From assembly GCF_000003815.2 (NCBI RefSeq), contig NC_049991.1, positions 14,740,154 through 14,804,153 on the forward strand: a DNA stretch of 64,000 nucleotides, written 5' to 3'. This stretch comes from Branchiostoma floridae (Eukaryota; Chordata; Leptocardii; Amphioxiformes; Branchiostomatidae). Position 1 is the stretch's first letter, and every line of letters begins with the position of its first letter. The translations under genes were made by a program, and so were the position numbers. Shown here piece by piece: positions 15,283 to 41,871 of the stretch. The notes under the pieces are model-generated. The model was not told the origin of the DNA. It ran no database searches and saw only the letters and a program-made list of their open reading frames with translations.

Positions 15283-15461
15283 GAAAAAATAAGATGCACA
15301 TAGTTTGGGTAAGCTGTCCTTGGGCTGTTTACGTCTTTTTCATAGTTTAAACATTCCATCCCTTTGTTAAAAGGAGAAAAACAAGATACACATAGTTTTG
15401 GTAAGCTGTGCTTGGGCTGTTGACGTCTTTGTCAGATTTTAAACATTCCATCCCTTTGTTG
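15283..15461 (+). repeat. 86-90 bp tandem duplication upstream of the NMRAL1-like start
   Basis: Two adjacent copies (about 15283-15368 and 15372-15461) share blocks such as GGTAAGCTGTSCTTGGGCTG, TTKACGTCTTT and AAACATTCCATCCCTTTGTT. The second copy runs directly into the acceptor CTCCTCTTAG at 15463-15472 in front of the coding exon, so the duplication lies at the promoter-proximal end or in the last 5'-UTR intron. Confidence 0.88.
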
Positions 15462-15483: not shown

Positions 15484-17359
15484 ATGCGGAAGCTGATAAC
15501 CGTGTTCGGCGCCAGCGGCAACCAGGGCGGCGGGGTGGTTCGTGCGCTGGTGGACGACCCGGGCTTCGAGCTGAGAGCTGTGTCGCGGGACCCGAACTCT
15601 GACAAGGCTGCCTGGCTGCGCAAACTTGGCGTCGATGTCGTCCAGGCGGACTATAATGACCCCGAGAGTCTGGAGCGCGCGCTGAACGGCGCGTACGGCT
15701 GCTTCGTGGTCACCGACACCGAGTGGGACAGCGACGACCCTCTTCAACAAGAGCTGATCCATGGACAGAACGTCGCGGACGCGTGCAAGAAGCAGGGGGT
15801 ACAACACGTGGTGTTCAGCGAGCTGCTGCACGTGAAGAAGGCGATCGGGATCTCCGCCAGACACTGTGACGCCAAGGGGCATATATCGGACTACATGAAG
15901 CAGATCGGACTCAACAAGACCGGCATCATCATCCCGTTCTACTTCGAGAACCTCCTGACAACAATGATCCCCAGGAAAACTGGCGATAACACATTTGCAT
16001 TAGGTAAGTACTACCATTGTACTAGGAGACAAATTCACCACTTGTTTTAGTTATATAAGGTCACAACGTAACAAACCTGAATGCCACTGCAGGCTCAAGG
16101 GTTACATGAATAGGACTGAAACAACATAATTGAGACCAGCTCAACTGCTCAATATTTGAAGAGTAAGGACTAACTGAACCAAACAGGAAAAACATGGGTT
16201 AGCCCCATTCTCTTCCTCATTAGATTGAAATGGTTTACACCGGTAAGGGACCTTACTCTCTTCGGTAAGTGTCACATTGCATTAAATACAAAAAAGAGCC
16301 AACTCAAATTTTCCCGGTTTATTCTTTTTCATCCTGGTCCTAACAACATACGGGAAACTTATCTTAGGGTATACAATTATATAATGCTGGTTGTTTTCTT
16401 TTCGCAGGAATTCCGTTCGGAGACAAACCTATGCCGGGAATAAGTGCGGAAGACATCGGGCTTGTTGTGGGCTCGTTCTTCCGCGACTCTGCGGCCTGGG
16501 GCGGGAAGAGTCTGGGCGTGGCGGGGGACATCATGCTAGTCAAGGACTACGCCAAGGTCCTCTCCAACAACCTGGGACCGAAGAAGTTTTTCGACGGCCA
16601 GGTTAGCATACAGAAACCTCGATCTGCCATGTTATGTTTATTTGTATGTCTCCTGAATCATGATCGCCGACATCCTTACATACTACATGTTGATAAAAAG
16701 CTTGCCAACAGGATCCTCGTACTAACCTTACAGTTGACAATTGATAATTGACTGTTACGTACCTTGCTTGCAGCCATATAAGGCAGTCTCTATTGGGCAC
16801 AATATGCATATGTTGATAATAATATCAGTGCATCCTCACTGGAGAATGTATATGTTCCTGTAACTGAATAACACCAGCCAGTGGAGTGTTGGTGTTCTTG
16901 GTATAATAAATTTTATATCAGGAAAGCCCGAAACGTCCAGCTATACAAGGGTGAGTCATTCTGCCTACCCCCAATACGATTGCCCTTCTTCCTACCCCAA
17001 AAACGATTGCCTATCTCCCTACCCAAAAGACGATTTCCCTCCTTCCTACCCCCAAGACGACTGCCCTTCTCCCTACCCCAAAGACGACTGCCCTTCTCCC
17101 TACCCAAAACTTCACGAGTGCCCTTGACCTTTTACACTCTAACCCCCCTTTCCCCTCTCTTCAGGTGACGGTACAACAGGTCCGGGACCTACAGCCCTAC
17201 TGGCCGGCTGCGGTGGACCTCGCCAACATGTACGAGTTCATGATGCGGGCCAGCCTGCCGTACAGCAAGGACCGCACGCTGAAGCTGTGCCCCGCCGTCC
17301 GGAGCTTCGACCAGTGGGTGGCGGACAACAGGGATAAGTTAGACGCCGCTTTTAATTAG
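15484..17359 (+). CDS. NMRAL1: NmrA-like family protein (NMRAL1/HSCARG-like), complete
   Basis: An NmrA-like atypical short-chain dehydrogenase. Vertebrate NMRAL1 (HSCARG) binds NADPH and acts as a cytosolic redox sensor rather than a classical enzyme. Coding exons are 15484-16003, 16408-16601 and 17165-17359 (stop TAG). Donors are GTAAGT and GTTAGC, acceptors TTCGCAG and CTTCAG; the phases 1 and 0 fit. The product has 302 residues; human NMRAL1 has 299. The N-terminal Rossmann strand carries GASGNQG (Gly9, Gly12, Gly15) and Arg35 after strand 2, the expected NADPH-phosphate contact. The text VFGASGNQGGGVVRAL, HVVFSEL and the C-terminal SFDQWVADN fit the family. The ATG in AAGATGCGG is the first in frame; an acceptor at 15471-15472 implies an upstream 5'-UTR exon. 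Coding GC is much higher than in the introns. The second intron contains a 27-bp minisatellite. Confidence 0.93.
16985..17115 (+). repeat. 27-bp minisatellite in the NMRAL1-like intron 2
   Basis: About five copies of a unit like CCCCAAAGACGACTGCCCTT plus CTCCCTA. Because the unit is a multiple of three it leaves an open frame on both strands (a repeating LPFSLPQRR pattern), which is a by-product and not a protein. It lies about 50 bp before the exon 3 acceptor. Confidence 0.92.
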
Positions 17360-26353: not shown

Positions 26354-29300
26354 TTAGACAGGCTGAGCCTTCACAGCTTGTTCGGCGGGGGCCGGGGTCT
26401 GTCCCCCGGCAGGGTAGGCCGGGCCCTGCTGGCCAGGCGGCGGCAGGTAGGCTGGGGGAGGCCCGCCCAGCGGCTGGATGTACCCGGCCTGGGGGTAGCC
26501 ACCCGGAACTGCTGTAAAGACAAAACGCATTAATGTAATCGTTGAAGAGATTCATTAGTCACGTTTGTTCACAGTTAATAGAATTTTTCATCAATCTCTC
26601 GGGGGAACTAGGTCACTCCGTGATCAAGATGGACTGATAGCCATCGAAAATTTGGAGGTACGTGTGCTCACATTTAATAACAGTCACTGATTGATGAAAA
26701 ATTCTATTAACTGCATCCATGTAATATTTGTTGTCTCGTACAGAGTGTAACGCTAGTTCACCTTTATCCGCGGAGTGGACCTAAATCTGCTGTTTTCAAG
26801 TGATCTTGGGATATGGTAGTTTCAAACTGCAGTATTTGTCCGTCGACTAGATTTTACTGCTTTCACTGCTTACCCTGTTTTGAAACAACGGATACAGGTT
26901 ATTCCGCGGATAAAGGTGAACTACCGTTAAGTCATTCACGGTAGCAGTTCAGAAAATCACTAAAAGTACATGGTGTCTTCTATATTTTCCATGAGATAGG
27001 CTGGATGTATTCCTTGTAGCAAATCAATGCAATAAAGTTTGTATAACTTGATATCACAATTAAATGTTGCTATGACGTATTTATTTTGAAACATTTTTCA
27101 GAACTATCTAAAATGAAAGCGGGATGACTATACTGACTAACTATGATGTTCAGGGGTGATGTTAGGCTTAGGTCCCATTTGAAACTGGGGCCCGACGGGG
27201 TGGCTTGCGGAAATAAAAAAAATAAAAGTGCTTACCAAGGAATATAACGTTACACAAATTATGCTCATGAATAATTTTGTTTACGTTCTGTGTGTTTTGT
27301 TGCCTTTTATTTCACTTTTTTTCCGAAAACTATCCGGCCGGGCCCCGGGTTGGGAATTGGGACCTAAGCCTTACCTGGGTTGTTGACACTGGGAGGCATC
27401 TGGGCGTACGGCAGGTTGGAAGGCTGCATGATCACCACACTCGAAGCCGGCTAGAACAACAGACTTGCCATTAGATAATATCGCACTGACTTGATTAATC
27501 TATGGAGGACTTCCGTATCTAAATATGAATGACATTCTCGCACGTATCGAGTATTGTTCATTAACAAAAAAAAGTTTGCAAAGAAGCTGCAAAATGAGCA
27601 AATATGATCAAAAGATATGTCTAGCACGACAGTCTCAAGAACAAGTGTAAATCCTCTTGGAAGCTCATCTGTGTTGGTAGTAATGACAGTGCAATTCTAA
27701 ACTTTCTTCCAACACAAAGGTATACACGGATCAAATTTTCGTGCCACGTTTGACCAATTACTGACGTCACGTATCCACAAGATCACGTGTTATCAACTCT
27801 GTAACTCTAGCGAGTCTGAAGTAATTGGTCGTCAGTATTGATCCTAAAGAAATCGATCCGCAAAGTGAAAATTTGATCCGTGTATACCTTTGTGTAGGAA
27901 GAAAGTTTATCATTGTACTAAGTGTTAATCCTGACTGATAAACGACGTCAGTGGTTGTTGAAAATTTGATCCGTGTATTCCTTTGTGTTGGAAGAAAGTT
28001 AAAAATTGTACTAAATCCTGCCTAATTGAAATAAGAAACGACCGAGCGCCCCACCTGCTGGTCGCAGCAGGAACAGCCCACCACACAGCCGACGATGGAC
28101 GAGGCGAAGCACAGGATCATCTCCACCAACCCTAGCGCCAGGCAGGTGTAGTGCAAGGCGATCATGGTCGAGCAGTTCCTGTGATATTAATGGAGGCATA
28201 GGGATGTAACAGCCACTAAGCAGTAAGACTTCAAGTCATCCAAAGCCGAGCTGTCAGGATCATCCTACAACTGAAACGACGATCCAGTGTCCAGGACTTA
28301 CACACCAAACTCAACTGGAGGTACTTGATGCAGCGCCAAAAGGAACACACTGATCTTAGAGTAAATCAGATATATTCTGTAACAAAGTGTACGAGAAGTA
28401 TAACTATAGGAGATGGAGAATACAGAGAATGCGAATCCCCGCTATCTTGAATGCTGTAGGGCATAACACACAGTTGTCCCAGGCATTGTATAACTCTCAG
28501 TGACCACTTTGCATGCATTGCGAGGTTTCTGATCTTAGAGCAAATCGGATATATTCTGTACGCACAACTGTAGGTGTCTGACAATACAGGAGACTACTTA
28601 CGAATCCCCACTCTCCTGACTGCCGTAGGGCATGACATCACCGTTGCCCCAGGAGTCGTAGCCCTCGGTGACGAAGACGTTGTTGAAAGCGCCCGAGAGG
28701 GTCTGCTGTAAGTCCACCACAAGGCAGGCCCAGGTCACCGCGGCGCCCGACACGCTGACCTGGGACAGCGCCACGAAGATGCCGATGATGCTCAAGGTCA
28801 GGAAGGCTGGGGTCTGAAGAACAGATACAGACACAGATTGTCATAACTCGCGTAAACCAGACATCGTGAATGAAATTACGAGCTAGCCAGAAAGGCTGAA
28901 AGTCTTCGGTCGTAATTATGTCACTGGAAAATAGAGGTATATTGTTTTTGGTTTGCCAGTCTCTACATTTGTGTTGTGGTCAGCATAACGTTAGAACCTT
29001 TGGATGAATTGTGATTATGTTTGGTTGGTGAGTAGTTCAGATAAAGATGAAGGTCAAGGTCAATTATGGCTCTCCTGGCGGCTGTTCTTGGTACTGCTTT
29101 CGCACATCTTTTGGTGTATATAGTGATAAGCCACAGAAAAGGCACTATGGGCCATTTTCAAGTCTTAATCAAGTCTTTACCATACGGGATTCGAAACCCC
29201 GACCTTGAAACATTACATAGTTTAGGATAACGTTCTGGATATGACAGCTATAACTTACGAATCCGGTAGGAGCGCCCTCCCGCTTGAAGTTCCTCCCGGC

Positions 29301-30479
29301 CATGATACCCATGGTTCCTGTGATGACCACCTACAGAAGCGGGAAAATATCCAATCAAATTCTCCACTAGCCTAGTAAGGCTAACGTCACATTTCCACAA
29401 AGTACTAGTACGATATAAAAGTCAACAAAAACACAAAACGGACCAAAAAATAATCCAACAGCGCGTCTTGTGCATATCTATTGGCAAACATCTTAATTCT
29501 TCGTTTCCCCAAACAGCCAGGTCGGGACCCGGGTAGGAAATGTGACGTAAGACTAACCATTTTCAACTGGCCGGCTTAGGCTTAGGCTTAGGTCCCATTT
29601 CCGAACGGCGGGGCCCGGCCGGGTTGTTTGCGTAAACGAAAAATAAAAGTGTTCACCGAGGAATATACACAAATTATGCTTCTGTCTGATTTTTTGTACT
29701 GTGTGTGTGTTTTGTTGCCTTTTTTTAAGTGAATAACCCTGACTTAAAAGCAAAAACGTGACATTTTCAAGGCAGCATGTCGACCGCAGGTACATTCTCT
29801 AGATCTAGCTTGACCTTTACCGTTTGACAGGTTCTCATGAGTGGGCGGGCGAAAGTATGTATGGATTATTATGGACTTACATACGTAATGTTTATTGACA
29901 TAACAAAAGTGCAGCGGCTTTCGTACATATGGGGTACACATACAAACATGTGGATACTTCTTAATGAAGTAACAAACATATAAAAATGAAAATATCGACA
30001 TTTACACTTCTAGTTCTTAGGTCTAAATATTATTCAATATATTTACCTACCTTTACACNNNNNNNNNNNNNNNNNNNNNNNNNNNNNNNNNNNNNNNNNN
30101 NNNNNNNNNNNNNNNNNNNNNNNNNNNNNNNNNNNNNNNNNNNNNNNNNNNNNNNNNNCTTAAGGTAAATAGCGTTTATAATATCGCGAACTTTAACTTT
30201 ATTCGAATTGCAACAGGTGCAATACAATGTGGACACTAGGCAGCTACCCAGCTGATGTACAGATACATTTACTGTACAAAAAATGAACAATATCGTGAAC
30301 AATCCATGATGCAGTGATCGACTTACAAATGCTCCAGCCCAGATTGGCCCGCTGATGCGACTGTAGTAGTCCGCCGGGAAGGCTGCGGCGGCGGCGATCC
30401 CCAGCACCGTGCTCAGGGCGCCCAGGCTGACCAGGGCCACCCCCAGCCCGAACATGCCGTGGCCGTTGTTCTTACACAT
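26354..30479 (-). CDS. MS4A/CD20-like four-span membrane protein, paralogue A
   Basis: Exons in transcript order: 30479-30327, 29330-29259, 28813-28602, 28178-28055, 27450-27375 and 26511-26354 (stop TAA). All have consensus splice sites and consistent phases, giving 264 residues. Four hydrophobic segments lie near residues 9-34, 42-64, 76-110 and 150-180, with the larger loop between the third and fourth, as in MS4A and related tetra-span proteins. Short intracellular N terminus MCKNNGHGMF; Cys-rich end of span 4 (GCVVGCSCC); Pro/Gly/Tyr-rich C-terminal tail with PPPAY (230-234), a PPxY motif that could bind WW domains. Function is probably a plasma-membrane adaptor or channel-like protein; ligands cannot be read from sequence. 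An in-frame upstream ATG at 30524 would add 15 residues, but paralogue B supports the ATG at 30479. Intron 1 holds a 100-N gap. Family assignment rests on topology and composition, so it is less certain than the gene itself. Confidence 0.78.
26574..26711. mobile_element. MITE with perfect 23-bp inverted ends
   Basis: The left end GTTAATAGAATTTTTCATCA plus ATC is exactly reversed at 26689-26711. The 138-bp element lies just upstream (in transcript terms) of the last exon of paralogue A. No second copy was seen. Confidence 0.9.
26748..26929. mobile_element. MITE with TAACGSTAGTTCACCTTTAT inverted ends
   Basis: Inverted ends of about 27 bp (TAACGCTAGTTCACCTTTAT then CCGCGGA, reversed at 26903-26929). 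A second, larger copy with the same ends is at 60630-60939. Non-coding. Confidence 0.88.
27701..28000. mobile_element. MITE with a duplicated right end
   Basis: Inverted ends of about 40 bp (ACTTTCTTCCAACACAAAGG then TATACACGGATCAAATTTTC, reversed at about 27867-27906). The right end plus about 50 bp of flank is repeated once more, ending at about 28000. It lies within intron 4 of paralogue A. Confidence 0.88.
30059..30158. other. Assembly gap (exactly 100 N)
   Basis: Unknown-size gap in intron 1 of paralogue A. The neighbouring exons join in phase, so no coding loss is implied. Confidence 0.98.
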
Positions 30480-30596
30480 TGTGGTGAACTTTAAGGGTTT
30501 GTCCTTAACCCTAGGAAATGTCATGAAGTCAATAACAGATTTAAATCAAAAGGAGCAAGAACAAGTCATGAATATATGATACATGTGTTTCTTTTT

Positions 30597-31775
30597 GTTA
30601 CCCAGCACCGTGCTCAGAGCGCCCAGGCTGACCAGGGCTACCCCCAGCCCGAACATGCCATGGCCGTTGTTCTTACACATGGCGGTGAGCTACCCTAGGA
30701 CTGTCGAAGAATTTCTTGAAGTCAATAACCAATTCAAAGTAAGGTCATGAACATATGATACATTTTTTGTTACCCAGGACGGTGCTAACGACACTAAGGC
30801 TGACCAGGGCCACCCCCAAATCGAACATACCATGGCTGTTGCTCTTACACATGGTGGCGAACTAACCACCCTAGGACTGTCGGAGAATTTCTTGAAGTCA
30901 ATAACAAATGTAAATCAAAAGCAGCAAGAACACCTGATGGACATTTATGATACGTGTATTTCTTTTTGTTACCCAGCACCGTGATCAGGGCGCCCAAGCT
31001 GACCAGGGCCACCCCCAGCCCAAACATGCCATGACCGTTGTTCTTACACATGGTGGCGAGCTACCCTAGGACTGTCGGAGAATTTCTTGAAGTCAATAAC
31101 AAATTTAAATAAAGGTTATGAACATATGATACATGTACATTTTTTGTTACCAAGGACGGTTGTCAGGGCGCTCATGCTGACCAGGGCCACCCCCAGCCCG
31201 AACATGCCGTGGCCGTTGTTCTTACACATGGCGGCGAGATACCCTAGGACTGTCGGAGAATTTCTTGAAGTCAATAACAAATTTAGATAAAGGTTATGAA
31301 CATATGATACATGTATTTCTTTTTGTTACCCAAGTCAGTGCTCAGGGCGCCCAGTCTGTTGTTCTTACACATGGTGGCGAACTTCAAGGGCTGGTCCAAC
31401 CCTAGGACTGTCAGAGAATGTCGTGAAGTCAATGACAAATCAAAAGCAGTAAGAACAAGTCATGAACATATGGTACATGTACATCTTTTTGTTACCCAGC
31501 ACCGTGCTCAGGGCGCCCAGACCGACCAGGGCCACCCCCAGCCCGAACATGCCGTGGCCGTTGTTCTTACACACGGTGGCGACCTACCCTAGGACTGTCG
31601 GAGAATGTCTTGAAGTCAATAACAAATGCAATCAAAAGCAGCAAGAACAGGTCATGAACATATGATACATGCACATCTTTTTGTTACCCAGGACGATGCT
31701 CAGGGCGCCCAGCTGCAGGCTGACCAGGCTCACTCCCAACCCGAACCTGGCCTAGCAATACAGCTAAGCAGGACA
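30597..31775 (-). repeat. Array of about seven partial copies of MS4A-like exon 1
   Basis: Directly upstream of paralogue A, units of about 165-200 bp repeat in the same orientation. Each holds the first 26 codons of exon 1 (MCKNNGHGMFGLGVALVSLG and on to TVLG) plus about 100 bp of 5' flank containing CCTAGGACTGTCGGAGAAT. Copy start codons (minus strand) are at 30680, 30852, 31051, 31229 and 31372. The copy near 31574 has GTG instead of ATG, and the one at 31685-31775 is degraded. The 31372 copy has an internal deletion. Each exon piece breaks off at GTGCTGG and runs straight into GTAACAAAAAG, so it lacks the Ala-rich second half of exon 1. Confidence 0.92.
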
Positions 31776-31945
31776 TGGTGTGACCTACCCTAGGACTGTC
31801 GGAGAATTTCATGAAGTCAATAAAAAATTTAAAACAAAAGCACCAAGAACAGGTCGTGGACATATGATACATCTTTTTTCTTTTTGTTCCTCGCACCCTT
31901 CTATACTTCTATTCCCAATGCGAGACCAGATCACTCATACTTGAC

Positions 31946-41300: not shown

Positions 41301-41871
41301 AATGACCTGGAAGGAGAAAAATTATGTTTACCGTAGGAAACCAAGCAAGCAAGCAACCAACTAACTAACCAACCAACCTGACCAATCAATCTAATAACGT
41401 TGCTGACTGCTTTGTCATACCGCATGGCACTGTAAACTTTACTGCCTTTAACACTATATAATACATGTACATGTACGCCATTTTCTAGGCAAATGCACTT
41501 GATTTATGTCTAGCAATGATATGATAGTACGGACATGAACTTTACTGAAATTTCCATCAGATTAATAGTTGGGCCATGTTCTGCGGATGTCGGGTCGGAC
41601 CGAATCCCCAAAGTTACCCTACTAACCTGCTAGTCTTAGTTTCCTAATATTTGTATTTGACAAATGTACCATTGTTATTTTAGAATAAAGGAAAAAAAAA
41701 GTATGGACATGAACTCACGAATCCCCCTGCCCAGATGGGTGCGCAGATGCGGCTGATCCCCTCCCAGCTGAAGGCCGCGGCCGCCGCCACCCCCAGGATG
41801 ACACTGAGGGAGCCCAGAGACACCAGGGTGATGCCCAGACCCAGCAGGGCCTGCCCGTTACTCTTGCACAT
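38379..41871 (-). CDS. MS4A/CD20-like four-span membrane protein, paralogue B
   Basis: Exons in transcript order: 41871-41719, 41306-41232, 40533-40382, 39756-39630, 39124-39061 and 38512-38379 (stop TAG). The product has 234 residues. Exon number, phases and the 153-nt first exon match paralogue A exactly. Shared text includes ALVSLGALS/TLVSLGSLS, GIMAGRNF, ALSIVGIFV, FASSIVGCVVG and the tail GGYVQQPGGAPPAYPPP with PPAY at 212-215. The third exon is shorter, so the loop between spans 3 and 4 is smaller. Its donor is placed at AG|GTATTT because only this keeps phase with the next exon. An in-frame TGA upstream of the ATG fixes the start at MCKSNG. The pair is a tandem duplication, same strand, about 8 kb apart. 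Like A, it is probably a plasma-membrane protein whose C terminus may recruit WW-domain partners. Confidence 0.8.
38835..39004. mobile_element. CTCCAAGCAGA-family MITE (170 bp)
   Basis: Ends TAATCTCCAAGCAGATC and GATCTACTTGGAGATTA are inverted. Flanks GGCATTCC (38827-38834) and GACATTCC (39005-39012) are an 8-bp target duplication with one mismatch. The interior (GGAGTGAAG, TAGGAGTGTG-like, TTGGC) is shared with 40101-40290. It lies in the last intron of paralogue B. Confidence 0.87.
39493..39566. mobile_element. Small foldback element, TAGCCTGGGTGCCATC ends
   Basis: TAGACTGGGTGCCATC pairs with GATGGCACCCAGGCTA across 74 bp. A lone GGTAGCCTGGGTGCCAGG at about 23849 may be a relic of the same family. 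Confidence 0.75.
40101..40290. mobile_element. CTCCAAGCAGA-family MITE (190 bp)
   Basis: Ends TAATCTACAAGCAGATCCTA and TAGGATCTGCTTGGAGATTA are inverted. The flanks GAATCGTC (40093-40100) and GAATCGTT (40291-40298) match at 7 of 8 bases. It lies in intron 3 of paralogue B. Confidence 0.9.
40601..40730. mobile_element. CTCCAAGCAGA-family MITE (130 bp) with perfect 8-bp duplication
   Basis: Arms of at least 23 bp (TACTCTCCAAGCAGATGTTG then GTG, exactly inverted) and a perfect target duplication GCTGTTGG at 40593-40600 and 40731-40738. An 8-bp duplication is the hallmark of hAT-type insertion. It lies in intron 2 of paralogue B. Confidence 0.94.

Follow-up and report, generated by a model that had tools for sequence, protein, structure and literature searches.

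Truncated start-exon copies upstream of an amphioxus CD20/MS4A-like gene: most likely an intron–exon boundary duplication of the mirage type

The 64,000-nt window of the Branchiostoma floridae genome analyzed here contains a CD20/MS4A-like gene (gene A) whose intact first coding exon is preceded by a row of truncated copies of itself. The array is tandem, its units share one junction and carry a mosaic history, the nearest paralogue has no such array, and other arrays at exon edges are present in the same genome. We consider it probable that the array is a mostly neutral amphioxus "mirage", that is, a minisatellite-like duplication of an intron–exon boundary that grew by unequal exchange and is spliced out with the 5'UTR intron. 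Most likely it is a side effect of DNA rearrangement and not a device for regulation.

Gene A lies on the minus strand and has six coding exons that stay in frame throughout (Table 1), with the start codon beginning at 30479. Exons 1–2 score 28.5 bits against the Pfam CD20/MS4A family (PF04103; cut-off 27.9), and the six-exon protein only 22 bits, below the cut-off, so that "CD20/MS4A-like" is used here as a loose name. A search of solved structures with the gene A protein gave a single match with an E-value of 0.95, and the passages of PMC7776563 dealing with MS4A make no mention of an amphioxus MS4A gene. The nearest paralogue, paralogue C (on C6), is 83–89% identical to gene A in the best stretches of exons 1–5 (83% in exon 1), 80% in the second part of exon 3 and 69% in exon 6. 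When the start exon of paralogue C was scored with the duplication criterion used for all loci, no array was found. By the same criterion there is no array at the first exon of paralogue B, which has an acceptor scoring 7.4 located 26 nt 5' of its ATG.

The array consists of seven head-to-tail units of 166–203 bp each (30602-31890, minus strand), in the same orientation as the intact exon and upstream of it, as the original prediction had it; the range proposed then, 30327..31775, stops short of the outer end of the array at 31890. Each unit combines 93–123 bp of 5' flank with coding sequence from the start of gene A exon 1. The coding part is 79 nt long (26 codons plus one nucleotide) in U1–U4 and U6, and thus the copies end in phase 1 whereas the intact exon ends in phase 0, a mismatch that had been rightly foreseen. 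The claim of a common break point is borne out at all seven junctions, each of which carries GTAACA. At least four copies were said to keep ATG and an open frame; we found five (U1–U5), all with a purine at −3. The outermost unit has gaps that break the frame, and beyond it the plus strand reads TTTTTGTTCCTCGCACC. In pairwise comparisons of U0–U7 the flanks differ at 5–18% and the exon parts at 4–23% of positions (gaps not counted), and this identity between units rules out chance similarity. A search of the genome (513 Mb in 431 contigs; match counts are lower bounds) gave one full place for the array among the matches listed. The array is read in one haplotype of the assembly, and a gap of 100 N is located some 170 bp past exon 1 (30059-30158), so the exact copy number rests on the assembly.

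Table 1 Gene A, the units of its array and the first exon of paralogue B (positions in the window)
Feature	Position	Strand	Remarks
Gene A coding exon 6	26355..26511	−	proline-rich tail
Gene A coding exon 5	27375..27450	−	
Gene A coding exon 4	28055..28178	−	
Gene A coding exon 3	28602..28813	−	
Gene A coding exon 2	29259..29330	−	
U0, gene A intact first coding exon	30327..30479	−	51 codons, phase 0, donor TTT|GTAAGT
5' flank of intact exon	30480..30601	−	probably end of 5'UTR intron
U1, truncated copy	30602..30773	−	ATG, open 26 codons at 30602-30680, plus flank
U2, truncated copy	30774..30972	−	ATG, open; 15/79 exon positions unlike intact exon
U3, truncated copy	30973..31150	−	ATG, open
U4, truncated copy	31151..31329	−	ATG, open
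U5, truncated copy	31330..31495	−	in-frame 36-nt deletion, 43 nt coding left; ATG, open
U6, truncated copy	31496..31687	−	GTG in place of ATG
U7, outermost copy	31688..31890	−	decayed
Paralogue B first coding exon	41719..41871	−	

The nature of the copied flank is suggested by the paralogues. Splice sites were scored with approximate weights. Of 21 scored paralogue loci, which include close relatives and are not 21 independent cases, 19 have a 3' splice site that reaches a score of at least 7 no more than 60 nt from the ATG; the same test was passed by 14.1% of 940 random windows. The 21 loci remain from 24, as two had no ATG that could be found and L016, whose 5' side is filled by an array, was dropped. 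Because strong acceptors stand so regularly near the ATG, a 5'UTR intron probably precedes the MS4A-like start exon, in which case the array would duplicate an intron–exon boundary. Each unit runs across the 5' edge of the first coding exon, where the paralogues would place this intron. The flank copied in the units thus most likely belongs to the end of a 5'UTR intron and is not a promoter, even though gene A's own site is weak: the candidate acceptor ...GACATTTCCTAG|GG, which would put the exon's first base near 30510 (31 nt upstream of the ATG), scores 5.7, lower than at any of the 21 paralogue loci (lowest 6.2).

A splice donor created at the junction had also been proposed. The GTAACA is indeed there, and paralogue C, judged by homology, appears to use a donor with these letters (CAG|GTAACA) at exon 5, but the junction donor scores only 3.5–3.7 (86–87th percentile of GTs in the window), compared with 4.3–4.6 (90–91st percentile) for the donors of gene A exons 1–3. 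By sequence it thus seems to be a mediocre donor, not an absurd one. In a hypothetical splice from the junction donor of U1 to the candidate acceptor of the intact exon, the frame would stop after six codons. Viewed on the plus strand, the unit junctions (30601-31687) carry an acceptor-like TTGTTACCCAG that scores 9–11 in five of the seven; antisense exons were considered, and besides these plus-strand acceptors we found nothing that points to an antisense gene.

The units have a mosaic history. Codons 24–25 are ACC-GTC in paralogue C, U2 and U4, with GTC shared by U7, and ACG-GTG in U0, U1, U3 and U6; U5 has neither version. The simplest account would be that the array is older than the change in codons 24–25, with later units copied anew from the exon after it had changed. 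U0 differs from U1 at 3/79 positions in the exon part and at 10/84 in the flank, and from U6 at 3/79 and 14/104. The mean flank divergence of U0 is 12.8%, against 8.9% among U1–U4 and U6. Set against the mirage pattern of homogenised inner and diverged edge units, U0 and U7 at the edges have flanks that on average are more diverged than those of the inner units, but U2, an inner unit, equals U7 in the divergence of its exon part. In addition, GCACC on the plus strand is common to one of the junctions (TTTTTGTTACCCAGCACC) and to the sequence at the array's outer end (TTTTTGTTCCTCGCACC), consistent with a duplication across short similar sequences.

From these features we infer how the array may have arisen. 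The first duplication would have joined codons 26–27 of the start exon to a point about 100–120 bp upstream of the ATG, the two sides of the break sharing GCACC (plus strand), and would have created a unit made up of the end of the 5'UTR intron, the 3' splice site, the ATG and 26 codons. The unit then probably multiplied by unequal exchange, and later copies may have been re-made from the live exon. Lying inside the 5'UTR intron, the array would normally be spliced out through use of the acceptor that belongs to the intact exon, and would be of little effect on the protein.

Whether the copies are under coding constraint was judged from the differences between them, and the evidence is mixed. 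The differences amount to 20 synonymous and 13 others, with about 29% expected to be synonymous (p ~1e-4); counted as distinct changes they are 16 to 12 (p ~0.002, kappa 2). Pairwise among U1–U4 and U6, the exon parts are without gaps and the flanks have 1–6 gaps per pair. Both the synonymous lean and the gap-free exon parts speak for constraint, part of which may be explained by inheritance from the live exon. On the other hand, the exon parts of these units are 14.9% diverged and their flanks 8.9%, and with U2 left out the values are 10.5% (50/474) and 8.5% (49/576); substitutions are thus no rarer in the exon parts than in the flanks, which argues against constraint on the copies.

Tandem repeats over an exon–intron boundary have been described in amphioxus under the name of mirages. 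The passages of PMC3087553 on these repeats cite them in Adh3, state that their length differs between haplotypes and that the results suggest no interference with regular splicing, and propose them as raw material for new introns; those of PMC3902484 report such repeats in PGBD5 and cite Adh and troponin C. As described there, the mirages of BflGb6, BflGb9, Adh3 and PGBD5 resemble the gene A array in that tandem units of similar length stand before a live exon, each made of an intron end, a splice signal and an exon start, the intron of the gene A unit being the one suggested by the paralogues. The gene A array likewise consists of head-to-tail repeats of the minisatellite type in a cephalochordate genome. 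As candidate splice signals its units have GTAACA at 7/7 junctions and AGs before the ATG in U1–U6, but the scores of these acceptors (3.9–5.5) are no better than those of random windows. Unlike the published cases, the exon is a start exon and the units carry an initiation codon and an open frame; in this open-licence literature, the passages of PMC3087553 and PMC3902484 on mirages make no mention of initiation codons within them. An expanding minisatellite with captured coding sequence, one of the options raised in the original prediction, is the best supported.

The globin loci serve as a positive control. A globin on C18 has a 158-bp unit repeated 4.2 times across the 5' part of its exon, and two globins on C7 lie on opposite strands 42 kb apart, one of them with a duplicate of an exon's 3' edge shifted by 157 bp. 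According to the relevant passages of PMC3087553, BflGb6 has units of 150–160 bp that are 81–100% identical, BflGb9 has a 157-bp duplicate, and the genome draft places BflGb5 and BflGb9 40 kb from each other in a head-to-head arrangement, with trace data disagreeing on the orientation. Matched by description, our loci fit these published genes in spacing and unit length, a fit that by itself makes B. floridae very likely.

We next compared exon edges in three gene families. The search with exon 1 returned 35 matches (gene A, five array copies and 29 paralogue matches), and the MS4A-like sample comprised 25 loci, namely gene A and 24 of the 29 paralogue matches, with locus E-values up to 0.52; five matches had no locus. 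All nine globin matches were used, together with 20 of 41 tetraspanin matches, hand-picked and mostly from the top of the list. Short-chain dehydrogenases were left out as a control, many of their matches lying within one long open frame. Duplications touching or abutting the exon were found at 8/25 MS4A-like, 2/9 globin and 3/20 tetraspanin loci, 13/54 in total, five of which (L016, L029, L030, L031 and, in the next intron, L070) have arrays that merely abut the exon. Control intervals of 150 bp gave 14/169, that is, 6/63 off exons in MS4A-like and globin loci and 8/106 in the window, where they were not cleared of exons; the comparison gives Fisher p=0.004, with exon intervals mostly of 96–250 bp and on average longer than the controls. 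With one gene cluster counted once and without two control hits that lie in exon-abutting arrays, the counts are 10/51 against 12/167 (p=0.016). This suggests that tandem duplication at exon edges is common in amphioxus, as a hint from a small sample rather than a measurement. A specific enrichment in MS4A-like genes is unsupported (8/25 vs 5/29 in globins and tetraspanins, p=0.34), and four of the eight MS4A-like positives belong to one cluster on C158, leaving five lineages with gene A included.

Several of these loci were inspected individually. The MS4A-like start exon at C7:17174106 is preceded by 35.6 copies of a 39-bp unit (L034:3190-4605, C7:17172689-17174104) made of CTAAC, a pyrimidine-rich stretch and AG, which together look like a 3' splice site, and ATG. 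A single frame is open for 537 codons through the exon, with 36 in-frame ATGs including the live one. Changes among the 39-bp units are 7 synonymous to 20 others, with 21% expected to be synonymous, giving no sign of constraint. At C7:17189617, about ten units of 62–73 bp (L040:2806-3616, C7:17188805-17189615) stand directly before an MS4A-like start exon and contain an acceptor-like CTACAG and a relic of ATGGCGTAC. The C158 cluster (L035, L036, L037 and L038) consists of related MS4A-like genes with start-exon duplications of 125–140 bp, containing an intron end, ATG and 7–28 codons as read by eye. All these arrays resemble that of gene A in standing directly before the live exon and in having units that join a 3'-splice-site-like stretch to a start codon, or its relic, and 3–28 codons (by eye). 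Their units are unlike those of gene A in length (39, 62–73 and 125–140 bp) and differ in sequence, so the arrays look independent.

Four other readings of the gene A array can be considered. The units could be duplicated promoters or alternative transcription starts, each giving rise to a short transcript that contains an ATG of its own. They do lie directly upstream of the start exon in its orientation, ATG (with a purine at −3) and reading frame survive in five of the seven, and the weakness of gene A's own acceptor would also fit. Tandem first exons upstream of a common body are known from genes of the protocadherin and UGT1A type, and in this respect gene A looks alike; there, however, the copies are complete exons with usable donors, while those of gene A break off after codon 26 and do not match in phase. 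With the copies ending in a weak donor in the wrong phase, and with the acceptors at 19 of the 21 paralogue loci marking the flank as an intron end, the proposal of duplicated promoters made earlier is weakened and is in our judgement very unlikely. Alternatively, the copies might act as cryptic acceptors with start codons, whose upstream frames of about 29–68 codons lower translation so that array length tunes expression. In favor of this, ATTGACTTCA with a branch-point-like TTGAC is kept in 8/8 units, AGs precede the ATG in U0–U6, the copies read into short frames, differences lean synonymous and the exon parts of U1–U4 and U6 are gap-free, and arrays with start codons occur in other MS4A-like paralogues. 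However, the best acceptor among U0–U6 is that of the intact exon (5.7, against 3.9–5.5 in the other units), and the acceptors of the copies are not above chance because scores of 4 or more are reached in 52% of random 90-nt windows. We regard this reading as unlikely, though not to the degree of the promoters. The broader idea that arrays of 3' splice site and start codon, such as those of gene A, C7:17174106, C7:17189617 and the C158 cluster, have arisen time and again, each independently, in amphioxus MS4A-like genes, with splicing into the copies as a length-tunable switch on these membrane proteins, would if true yield N-terminal variants or upstream frames whose number varies with array length; it seems very unlikely indeed.

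The array might also be an artefact of assembly, with haplotypes or mis-joined reads stacked as tandem copies. Amphioxus is highly polymorphic, and the 100-N gap is close to the exon. However, the units differ from each other by 5–18% in the flanks and 4–23% in the exon parts, which we judge to be above what stacked haplotypes would give, they have shared derived changes and different gaps, and globin arrays resembling the published mirages are present in the same assembly, making an artefact extremely unlikely.

Taken as a mirage, the gene A array is most likely an ordinary member of a known but little-studied class, and the start codons in its units are what would be novel about it. The few mirages that we found in print, in the open-licence literature, would thereby gain a case whose units bear start codons. 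At the gene A locus alone, little effect on the protein is expected. If mirages are common in the amphioxus genome, the idea that they are raw material for introns becomes testable gene by gene.

Further repeats near splice-site-like sequences were noticed. On C4, a 49 bp × 3.9 array (L069:447-636) repeats an acceptor-like stretch with the start of a tetraspanin exon, a mirage-like arrangement in a third family. At L041 / L025 (C19:8620109), two further copies of the 3' part of an MS4A-like exon, donor side included, follow downstream at spacings of 235 and 224 bp. Within the window, an NmrA-like gene (named by eye) has an acceptor-like site shortly before its ATG, and two 92-bp repeats (15285-15460) stop 12 bp short of the end of this site; a pyrimidine-rich 27 bp × 5.6 array (16959-17109) lies in an apparent intron of the NmrA-like gene.
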